64,000 nt of DNA from Rickettsia endosymbiont of Lasioglossum villosulum (GTDB lineage Bacteria; Pseudomonadota; Alphaproteobacteria; Rickettsiales; Rickettsiaceae). The translations under genes and the position numbers were made by a program. The notes under the pieces were generated by a model. That model saw nothing but the letters and a program-made list of their open reading frames with translations. It was not told the DNA's origin and ran no database searches. Location of the stretch: positions 620,001-684,000 of the forward strand of contig NZ_OZ032152.1 in NCBI RefSeq assembly GCF_964026455.1. The letters are read 5' to 3'. Of the stretch, positions 44,551 to 47,056 are shown in pieces. Within the stretch, counting starts at the first letter, position 1, and every line of letters begins with the position of its first letter.

Positions 44551-45296
44551 CTAAAATAAGACTTGATGAATTTTTACTGCAAAAAGGTTTTGCCCCAAGT
44601 ATCCAAATAGCACAAAGTCTAATTATGCAGGGTAAAGTGCATAATAAACATGAGCAATTAACCAAAGCCGGAACTCAAGTTAATGTAAATGATAAGGATA
44701 TTAAGGTAAAATTGCCGAAGCATAATTATGTTTCAAGAGGAGCATTAAAGTTAATTAAGGCTTTAGATCATTTCAAGATTAACCCTAGCGGTATGGTTTG
44801 CATTGATCTTGGAAGCAGTACTGGCGGTTTTACGGAAGTTTTATTGGAGCAAGGTGCAAAGTTAGTTTTTGCTGTAGATGTTGGTTATGGCGAGCTGCAT
44901 CATAGATTGCGTGACAATCCACAAATTATAGTACTTGAGAAAACTAATGCACGATATTTAACCGAAAAACAAATAACTACTCAGCCTGATTTGATAGTTT
45001 GTGATGCAAGCTTTATTAGCTTAACCACTATTCTGCCTGCTTCATTTGCTTTAGCTAAGAAAAATTGTTTGCTTATAGCTCTAATTAAGCCGCAATTTGA
45101 AGTCGAAAAGCAGGAGGTAGAGGAGGGGGGAATTATTAAAAATCCGTTACTCCATCAAAAAGTGTGCAATAAAATTAAAGCTTGGCTTGAAGAAGAACAT
45201 AATTTTGAGATATTCGGTATTGTAGAAAGCCCGATACTTGGAGCTAAAGGAAATAAAGAATTTTTAATAGTAGGGCAGAGAAAAAAGACACTTTAA
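44547..45296 (+). CDS. tlyA: TlyA-type rRNA 2'-O-methyltransferase (S4 + FtsJ domains)
   Basis: 249 residues. An S4 RNA-binding domain at 1-60 (RLDEFLLQKGFAPSIQIAQS) precedes an RrmJ/FtsJ-like methyltransferase domain with SAM motif CIDLGSSTGGFTEVLLE, VDVGYGELH, and LIALIKPQFE. In other bacteria TlyA methylates 16S and 23S rRNA cytidines and was first called a haemolysin; the haemolytic role is not supported here. Overlaps rph by 4 bases; ends convergently over the last 4 bases of the regulator gene. Confidence 0.93.
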   Translation: MTKIRLDEFLLQKGFAPSIQIAQSLIMQGKVHNKHEQLTKAGTQVNVNDKDIKVKLPKHNYVSRGALKLIKALDHFKINPSGMVCIDLGSSTGGFTEVLLEQGAKLVFAVDVGYGELHHRLRDNPQIIVLEKTNARYLTEKQITTQPDLIVCDASFISLTTILPASFALAKKNCLLIALIKPQFEVEKQEVEEGGIIKNPLLHQKVCNKIKAWLEEEHNFEIFGIVESPILGAKGNKEFLIVGQRKKTL

Positions 45297-45703
45297 ATCA
45301 ATTTATTATTAATTGCATCCTCTAATGTATAATTATTAAGTGTTTTTATAAATGCATTGCTTGCCTCCTTAATAAAATGTTTAAATTGGCACGAATTAGT
45401 GATTCTACATTGATTAGTATCCTTATTAAAACACTCTACTATATCCATATTAGGCTCTAACTTCTCTATTATATCTCCAAGTTTTATAGAAGAGGGGTTA
45501 GATGCTAATCTAATTCCACCTCCTTTTCCTTTACTACTAGTTATATATCCTAATTGTGCTAATTTGTGTATTACCTTTACTAAATGATTAAGCGAAATAT
45601 TATAGTATTCTGCTATTTCTTTTATACTACAAATTTTCTCCTGTTTAGATGCAAGATATATAAGACTACGTAATCCATAATCTGTAAAACTTGTTAACTG
45701 CAT
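45293..45703 (-). CDS. nsrR: NsrR-like Rrf2-family regulator (Fe-S, NO-responsive)
   Basis: 136 residues from ATG 45703; MQLTSFTDYGLRSLIYLASK is nearly the start of E. coli NsrR. Winged helix with YYNISLNHLVKVIHKL as recognition helix and KGKGGGIRLA as wing. Three cysteines in VECFNKDTNQCRITNSCQF have NsrR-like spacing for a [4Fe-4S] or [2Fe-2S] cluster that NO destroys, releasing DNA. Family homologues IscR and RirA have different Cys spacing and start. Divergent from the flavohaemoglobin gene at 45821 across a perfect palindrome, the typical nsrR/hmp layout. Confidence 0.82.
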   Translation of the reverse strand: MQLTSFTDYGLRSLIYLASKQEKICSIKEIAEYYNISLNHLVKVIHKLAQLGYITSSKGKGGGIRLASNPSSIKLGDIIEKLEPNMDIVECFNKDTNQCRITNSCQFKHFIKEASNAFIKTLNNYTLEDAINNKLI

Positions 45704-45754
45704 AAAAATTTTATTTTTTATCTTGAATATACAAAAAAACATTTATATAAGTCT

Positions 45755-45795
45755 ATATGTTATAATATGTATTTGAAATACATATTATAACATAT
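45755..45795. promoter_or_regulatory. perfect 41-nt palindrome, NsrR operator candidate
   Basis: Two exact 20-base arms around G45775. The core ATATGTATTT-G-AAATACATAT fits the known 11-1-11 NsrR operator type (ATGYATTT-N-AAATRCAT). It lies 52 bases from the regulator start and 26 bases from the hmp-like start, so it can control both. Confidence 0.8.
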
Positions 45796-45820
45796 TAATA
45801 ATTGTAAACAAGGAGTGACT

Positions 45821-47056
45821 ATGTCTAAAGTAATTACAGCAAAAGAAATAAAAGATGCTGCTAAGTTATTTAAAAATTTTGATATTACTAAATCATTAAA
45901 TTTTTATGGGAGTTTGGTAGCTAATTATAAAGTTGTGGTAGATGAATATTTTAATAGTAGTAGCTTCAATTTGAAAGAACCAGAAAAAGGAACGCAACCA
46001 AATTTAATGAAAAATTTTTTAAACCTTACTGGAAATGCTATTTTAAAAGTTTTAGATTCATATAATGAAACAGATGAAGTAAATATTTCAGAAGTTATAC
46101 AATCAGCTTTAGATAATGATAATAAATTTAATGAAGCGATAGCAAAAATTGTTGGCATACATGTAGGGCGTAATATTCCTGCACATCTATATCCACCCGT
46201 TGCTGAAAAGCTTATATTAAATGTAGGAAATGGTAATGAGCTAGTAAAAGAAATATTAAATGAAGTAGGAGCATATTTTGTAAAAACTGAAGAAAAGCAA
46301 TATAATGAGTTGAAAGAATACAAAATAGAAAATTTTGAAGAGCATAAAATAAAAATCGAAATGAAAAACGCTGATGGAGATACAGCAAAAATAAAATTTT
46401 ATAGACAGAATGAGCAGGAAGTAACACCTCATAAACACGGACAAATTATTACTATTAAAGTGGGAAGCAATTATAGTGAATTTACAGTTATGAAAACTGG
46501 TCATGATAATGAGGGGCATTATTATGAATGTTTGATAAAGAAAAATCCTAATGGAACTGTAACAAATTACCTATTTAATGATAAAAATCAGCTAGTAAAA
46601 GTGCAGCCCTCATATATTGAGTCAGATATAGAAACTACAAAAGACCTTGTCCTTATTAGTAGTGGATCAGGAGAAAGCCATTCTATTTCTATAATAAATA
46701 AAAAGGATATTCCGTTCCCACAATCCATCCATGTTATTCATTCTACTAAAAGTGAAAATAGTGATACATTTCAATTAGATGAAGTAATTAATGTTGCAAA
46801 ATCATATAATATTAACGTTTCTCATCATAAACATTATACTCATTATAGTGGTAGAATGACTAAAGAATCTTTAAGCGATATTTTAGAAAATTATGATAGC
46901 CATTATGAAGTTTGTACTTCTAGCTCTTTTAGTACTGCTATACAGCAGACATTAAAGGGATGGGGTGTTGAAGACGTTAATATTCATGTAGAGGGATTCG
47001 GTTCGATACCAGAAATTCTTGATTCAGCATTAATAGGTGTCTGTCCGTTTCATTAA
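45821..47056 (+). CDS. hmp: diverged flavohaemoglobin (Hmp-like NO dioxygenase)
   Basis: 411 residues; ATG 45821 with AAGGAG upstream. Globin domain 1-170: Y29 (NFYGSLV) equals distal Tyr B10, H114 (KIVGIHVGRNIPAHLY) the haem ligand F8 and Y124 ten residues later, as H85/Y95 in E. coli Hmp. Reductase part 175-411: NYSEFTVMK replaces the FAD motif RxYS, VLISSGSGESHS the NAD(P) glycine loop, HSTKSENSDTFQLDEV and SGRMTKESLSDIL follow family order, and CTSSSFSTAI...NIHVEGFG matches CGPxxF...IHYECFG. The CGP is changed to CTS, so NADPH use may be altered. Divergent from nsrR; likely converts NO to nitrate. Confidence 0.75.
   Translation: MSKVITAKEIKDAAKLFKNFDITKSLNFYGSLVANYKVVVDEYFNSSSFNLKEPEKGTQPNLMKNFLNLTGNAILKVLDSYNETDEVNISEVIQSALDNDNKFNEAIAKIVGIHVGRNIPAHLYPPVAEKLILNVGNGNELVKEILNEVGAYFVKTEEKQYNELKEYKIENFEEHKIKIEMKNADGDTAKIKFYRQNEQEVTPHKHGQIITIKVGSNYSEFTVMKTGHDNEGHYYECLIKKNPNGTVTNYLFNDKNQLVKVQPSYIESDIETTKDLVLISSGSGESHSISIINKKDIPFPQSIHVIHSTKSENSDTFQLDEVINVAKSYNINVSHHKHYTHYSGRMTKESLSDILENYDSHYEVCTSSSFSTAIQQTLKGWGVEDVNIHVEGFGSIPEILDSALIGVCPFH

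Follow-up and report, generated by a model that had tools for sequence, protein, structure and literature searches.

Locus Organization

The window analyzed here comprises 64,000 nucleotides (positions 620001–684000 of contig NZ_OZ032152.1) of the 1.51-Mb genome of a Rickettsia endosymbiont of Lasioglossum villosulum. It contains two divergent genes separated by a 117-bp gap, one predicted to encode an NsrR-type regulator of the Rrf2 family and the other a 411-amino-acid (aa) protein resembling flavohaemoglobin (Table 1). The original prediction, made from the sequence alone, interpreted this pair as a self-contained unit for nitric oxide (NO) sensing and detoxification, and both open reading frames were found at the positions and in the divergent orientation that it gave. 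A candidate promoter of the flavohaemoglobin gene sits immediately before the palindromic operator in the gap; it was not picked up by a consensus promoter scan. Domain limits within the 411-aa protein were set by hand.

Table 1. Features of the regulator–flavohaemoglobin locus (window coordinates).
Feature	Position	Strand	Basis
NsrR-like Rrf2 regulator	45293..45703	−	136 aa from ATG at 45703; NF008240, identity to NsrR, D8, R12 and three Cys
Candidate promoter of flavohaemoglobin gene, TTGAAT-17-TATAAG	45723..45751	+	By eye; nearly invariant in eight aligned loci
Perfect 20-1-20 palindrome, putative NsrR-type operator	45755..45795 (core 45764–45786)		Consensus from PMC1274295
Ribosome binding site, AAGGAG	45810..45815	+	5 bases ahead of the ATG of the 411-aa protein
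Diverged flavohaemoglobin gene, 411 aa	45821..47056	+	Profile match, alignment, predicted fold
Globin half, residues 1–165	45821..46315	+	Predicted fold, residues, profile model
FAD-type barrel, residues 166–268	46316..46624	+	SEFT replaces RxYS; dN/dS 0.215
NAD-type Rossmann domain, residues 269–411	46625..47053	+	Altered motifs
Hairpin with T tail, likely terminator, in flavohaemoglobin gene–rimP gap	47147..47174	+	12-bp stem, −17 kcal/mol, z = −4.3

Identification of a Diverged Flavohaemoglobin

A chance open reading frame was ruled out, the probability of a 411-codon open frame at the local base composition being ∼4e-18. The NCBIfam model for Hmp (NF009805) matched residues 96–395 with E = 2.1e-21, bearing out the claim that the protein is a strongly diverged flavohaemoglobin, ∼19% identical to the type I protein Hmp of E. 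coli (structure 1gvh). A sequence search of the PDB also ranked a flavohaemoprotein first, although weakly (E = 0.0022). In the predicted structure the three-domain flavohaemoglobin fold was present, globin half included, and the first six PDB fold matches were flavohaemoglobins. The lack of a globin fold, named in the original prediction as a refuting result, was therefore not seen.

The profile search that had been proposed as a check gave a divided result: NCBIfam recognized Hmp, far below the curated cut-off, and Pfam was blind to the globin half. Pfam returned only FAD_binding_6 (E = 0.014, below its cut-off), and Pfam Globin had zero matches in the whole window genome at E ≤ 1, so that the gene escapes that model altogether. 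A hidden Markov model (HMM) built from the globin half of E. coli and 118 canonical ones recovered that of the 411-aa protein at E = 0.042, compared with 0.27 for the best of 2000 shuffles, and E improved to 1.6e-4 when the globin half of R. bellii (genome G014, locus L013, which we take to be that species) was added. Profile comparison of the globin half with hhalign, using very thin profiles, gave the correct register at 21.6% probability. When 5.8 billion proteins were searched by a word-based method, four relatives appeared at E ≤ 0.001; the sole one with a printed source comes from a Rickettsia endosymbiont and is annotated as hypothetical. The resemblance of the 411-aa protein to flavohaemoglobin is beyond chance.

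Conserved Haem Pocket and Altered Electron Relay

Alignment to Hmp of E. coli and to three canonical proteins of Rickettsiales showed that Y29, Q59, H114, Y124, E157, and Y161 are kept; Y29, H114, and Y124, which the original prediction had matched by eye to flavohaemoglobin, align with haem-pocket residues of Hmp. By alignment, TyrB10, PheCD1, GlnE7, HisF8, Tyr95, ValG8, and Glu135 occur in all seven Rickettsia-type sequences and in 119 of 119 canonical sequences, a figure valid for this sample only, which was picked by likeness to the search alignment (E. coli plus 118 others, the latter comprising those of the 120 best listed matches that were canonical and one earlier match).

The residues that would supply this pocket with electrons are changed. 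In each of the seven Rickettsia-type sequences, LysF7 (E. coli K84) is replaced by isoleucine (Ile113), LeuE11 by methionine (Met63), and the equivalent of Y188 by isoleucine or valine; the flavin motif RxYS likewise reads SEFT in all seven (S219-E-F-T222 in the 411-aa protein), its arginine gone. The earlier identification of NYS (217–219) as the flavin motif was mistaken. In the nicotinamide adenine dinucleotide (NAD) domain of the 411-aa protein, GxGxTP has become GSGESH and CGP has become CTS, whereas protein P0003 retains CGP; a motif scan of the 411-aa protein found none of RxY[FS/T], GxGxTP, and CGP. At 46660–46710, after the glycine loop (SSGSG vs. SGGSG), the protein is four residues shorter than that of Rickettsia sp. 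MEAM1, whose genome is listed as the same species. All five Rickettsia-type sequences that extend that far retain E391 and F393, which correspond to E388 and F390 of E. coli. Both Y188 and the flavin arginine have functional roles in Hmp. LysF7, a water molecule, and GlnE7 form the gate for electron transfer from flavin adenine dinucleotide (FAD) in E. coli Hmp (PMC7948479), and with the lysine that gate is lost. The catalytic pocket is therefore conserved while its supply line is not, and self-sufficient NO dioxygenase activity should not be assumed. The 411-aa protein shares with type I Hmp the predicted three-domain fold and the pocket residues, but since the electron-relay and cofactor features tested are lacking, we do not class it as a standard Hmp.

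At this locus R. bellii has a flavohaemoglobin gene with the same neighbors and operator, and the reductase half of its product is 42–60% identical in windows from residue 201. The R. bellii protein differs in its globin half, which resembles that of E. coli and is accepted by Pfam Globin, and in keeping LysF7, LeuE11, Y188, and the flavin arginine, yet it carries the same odd NAD motifs. Because R. bellii keeps these relay residues, the locus amounts to a natural experiment on the importance of individual flavohaemoglobin residues. Type II flavohaemoglobins, likewise two-domain haem–reductase proteins with a nonstandard FAD site, are described as occurring only in actinomycetes and as having other FAD motifs (PMC8883573). 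Of the type II motifs, A(x)7AxN was absent from the 411-aa protein, D(x)8GxxP occurred once, at 385, and G(x)7GS once, at 207, both possibly by chance.

Regulator and Operator

The regulator is 46% identical to E. coli NsrR, and among the equivalog models listed, NsrR (NF008240) scored best at 142.8 bits, in agreement with the earlier assignment. Residues D8, R12, C91, C99, and C105 are present, as are Asp8, Arg12, and three cysteines in NsrR of S. coelicolor, where D8 and R12 connect the cluster to the DNA-binding part (PMC5411485). The cysteines had been described as NsrR-spaced; their spacing is in fact C-X7-C-X5-C, wider at the first interval than the C-X4-C-X5-C of E. coli NsrR. From model score, Asp8, and Arg12, the protein is likely an NsrR-type regulator.

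The operator core reads tATGTAT-TTGAA-ATACATa and fits the NsrR consensus gATGyAT-N5-ATrCATc in its Neisseria form, in which T and A replace the outer G and C (PMC1274295); 17 of 23 bases are common to the E. coli hmp site. The presence of this operator in the shared gap, which the original prediction did not note, strengthens the pairing of regulator and flavohaemoglobin. No second operator was found in the window genome with up to three mismatches allowed. A site fitting the pattern exactly occurs in 8 of 23 genus genomes. All eight have an intact nsrR, and the site always lies in the interval that separates nsrR from the flavohaemoglobin gene or from what remains of it. Sites with two or three mismatches in relatives were rejected as noise (0–5 per genome vs. 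0–4 for the reversed control), except that G004 had 17 mismatch-tolerant sites against 4 in the control, largely copies of one sequence. Orthologs of nsrR (82–100% identity) are intact in nine of the 23 genomes, the ninth being G008, which is without the exact operator, and broken in two; ten others have only an Rrf2 relative of 25–30% identity, and two have no match. A second Rrf2 regulator, 25% identical and presumably IscR-like, is encoded outside the window at contig positions 739093–739500, with relatives in most genus genomes.

Selection on the Flavohaemoglobin Gene

Ratios of nonsynonymous to synonymous substitution rates (dN/dS) were obtained by the Nei–Gojobori method, with significance from Fisher tests on rounded counts. 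Purifying selection acts on the flavohaemoglobin gene: dN/dS was 0.39 overall between the window and G003, which we take to be R. felis (p = 3e-11), 0.125 between G003 and G017 (p = 4e-7), and 0.35 between the window and MEAM1 (p = 0.005). By domain, the comparison with G003 gave 0.40 for globin (p = 1e-4), 0.215 for FAD (p = 2e-6), and 0.49 for NAD (p = 1e-3). The FAD domain is thus the most constrained despite its changed cofactor residues, which is hard to reconcile with that domain being useless. Between the window and R. bellii, a mosaic pair, overall dN/dS was 0.78.

Distribution and Mosaic History

The gene was found across Rickettsia, as the original prediction had proposed to check, but patchily and with several copies broken. 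Of 58 genomes, 13 had a match, the window's own among them and all within the genus; none was found at E ≤ 0.001 in the 36 genomes outside it. Full-length open frames were present in four (G000, the window genome; G003; G017; and G014, of the R. bellii type), one copy was shortened (G020), one lay mostly beyond a contig end (G019), and seven were broken or fragmentary (G002, G007, G008, G009, G013, G016, and G018). The MEAM1 gene is open and full length. Among 174 genomes of the order, five had a canonical Hmp above the curated cut-off, none of them in this genus, and a search of 72,556 plasmid records found no plasmid-borne relatives at E ≤ 1e-5.

Window DNA is 96% identical to that of R. bellii up to 45829, has no blastn alignment until 46646, and then averages 87.7% to the end of the locus; identity to G003 is ∼80% over 44546–46784 and 82% over 47082–48539. 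At the protein level, residues 1–100 are 29–30% identical to R. bellii and 66–74% to P0007 (G017), and residues 371–411 are 60% identical to R. bellii and 36% to P0007. Because identity switches between the two along its length, the gene is a mosaic, for which the simplest reading is that the R. bellii lineage may have acquired a canonical globin half. The tree joined the window and R. bellii types (100/100), with branches >1 flagged by the program as a long-branch risk.

Two rearranged loci were also observed. In G002 (L014, 2203–3073), pieces of an IS630-type transposase adjoin the cut end of an R. bellii-type flavohaemoglobin gene, and the nsrR remnant is located elsewhere, away from the flavohaemoglobin remnant. 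In MEAM1 (NZ_CP016305.1; L001 and L002), the nsrR–flavohaemoglobin locus is present twice, in blocks mostly >99% identical that were rearranged by repeated elements and whose two operators differ at the center base; this may be a real duplication or an assembly artifact.

Proposed Function and Alternative Explanations

The 411-aa protein is a real, selected derivative of flavohaemoglobin under what is likely an NsrR switch, and we consider it probable that the two genes form an NsrR-type-controlled NO defence pair. An iron–sulfur regulator bound to the shared palindrome would repress both genes; NO would destroy its cluster, free the operator, and allow the flavohaemoglobin-like protein to be made. 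Haem, in a pocket with the catalytic residues of Hmp, would then bind O2 or NO, and NO would be removed, most likely by dioxygenation to nitrate. Judged by their residues, the haem half and its control should work like those of Hmp. The reductase half, which would bind flavin, keeps its fold; with the lysine gate, Y188 equivalent, flavin arginine, and standard NAD motifs lost, electron supply is probably altered, being slower, using cofactors differently, or coming from a partner. Of the self-contained unit first proposed, the NsrR-like regulator, the divergent and strongly diverged flavohaemoglobin, and the haem-pocket residues stand, but to call it self-contained overreaches, given the changed relay and cofactor residues.

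Several observations weigh against an NO defence pair. The Hmp match scored 76.3 bits against a curated cut-off of 432 and the NsrR match fell short of its cut-off of 182; the globin half alone was weakly recognized by both HMM and hhalign. A fold model built on the seven Rickettsia-type sequences alone was poor (predicted local distance difference test 52, predicted template modeling score 0.40); Foldseek still placed flavohaemoglobins on top, but at a template modeling score of ∼0.3 this is supportive only. The LysF7, flavin arginine, and NAD motif changes belong here as well, as an Asn mutant of LysF7 in E. coli had six-fold lower initial activity, 90% of which was lost within ∼30 s (PMC7948479). 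Between the window and MEAM1, the globin half has six nonsynonymous changes and one synonymous. Finally, nsrR is intact beside a broken flavohaemoglobin gene in G013, G007, and G008 (L077, L079, and L081), so that the regulator may have another job or target there.

It is possible, though we think it somewhat doubtful, that the protein binds haem and NO without being a self-sufficient NAD(P)H–FAD–haem enzyme, and acts as an NO scavenger, as a haem-based NO/O2 sensor, or with electrons from another reductase. The loss of LysF7, the Y188 equivalent, and the flavin arginine in all seven sequences with haem-side residues kept, together with the missing motifs, argues for this, but the strong constraint on the FAD domain and the retention of E391 and F393 suggest that the reductase half still works somehow. 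More tentatively, the gene may represent a Rickettsia-only class of flavohaemoglobin with a fixed haem pocket, in which the built-in relay (LysF7 gate, flavin arginine, and NAD loop) was replaced, NO removal depends on another electron source or another reaction while control stays with an otherwise standard NsrR switch, and Rickettsia lineages have swapped the globin half as a cassette.

A once useful flavohaemoglobin gene drifting toward a pseudogene, as in relatives, appears unlikely. Broken, shortened, or truncated copies in the matched genomes and the four NAD-domain residues of MEAM1 that are absent here are consistent with decay, but the 411-codon frame is open, dN/dS is below 1 against both G003 and MEAM1, and the operator and ribosome binding site are intact. 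Least probable is that the regulator is of the RirA type and the pair part of iron control: its C-X7-C-X5-C spacing, unlike that of E. coli NsrR, is also that of RirA, but the RirA model scored second best (106.9 bits, below its cut-off of 193), and an NsrR-type operator adjoins the flavohaemoglobin gene. In R. rickettsii, the regulator next to yhbC, A1G_04620, was named as RirA/Rrf2 type (PMC2791219), whereas RirA reportedly does not conserve Asp8, which is present here (PMC5863699). The NO defence pair offers an alternative reading for an Rrf2 regulator previously called RirA-type.

In this Rickettsia gene pair, a globin effector is accompanied by a clear operator and by NO as the likely signal, in a group once surveyed as nearly globin-free: a 2006 survey reported globins in one of ten Rickettsiales genomes, that of Pelagibacter (PMC1457004). 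An account of R. rickettsii lists two Rrf2 proteins, including A1G_04620, and describes a species that has few regulators and responds little at the level of transcription (PMC2680988). A deletion in R. peacockii removes yhbC, the regulator, and "gene fragments resulting from gene reduction" (PMC2791219); from gene order, these fragments may be remnants of the flavohaemoglobin gene. Our literature search, which covered titles and abstract openings and had most subscription papers outside its scope, found no description of this gene. If active, the pair would make it possible to test concretely how bacteria with an obligate intracellular life cope with host NO.

Neighboring Genes and Other Elements

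Named from best NCBIfam family matches, the genes at the locus are, in order, grpE (reverse), rph, tlyA, the nsrR-like regulator (reverse), the 411-aa protein gene, rimP, nusA, and infB. A pattern-based scan listed no terminator at the hairpin preceding rimP. Outside the window, at contig positions 576170–577450, lies a gene for cytochrome bd subunit I, which is present in 22 of the 23 genus genomes and is presumably another possible NO-tolerant element.
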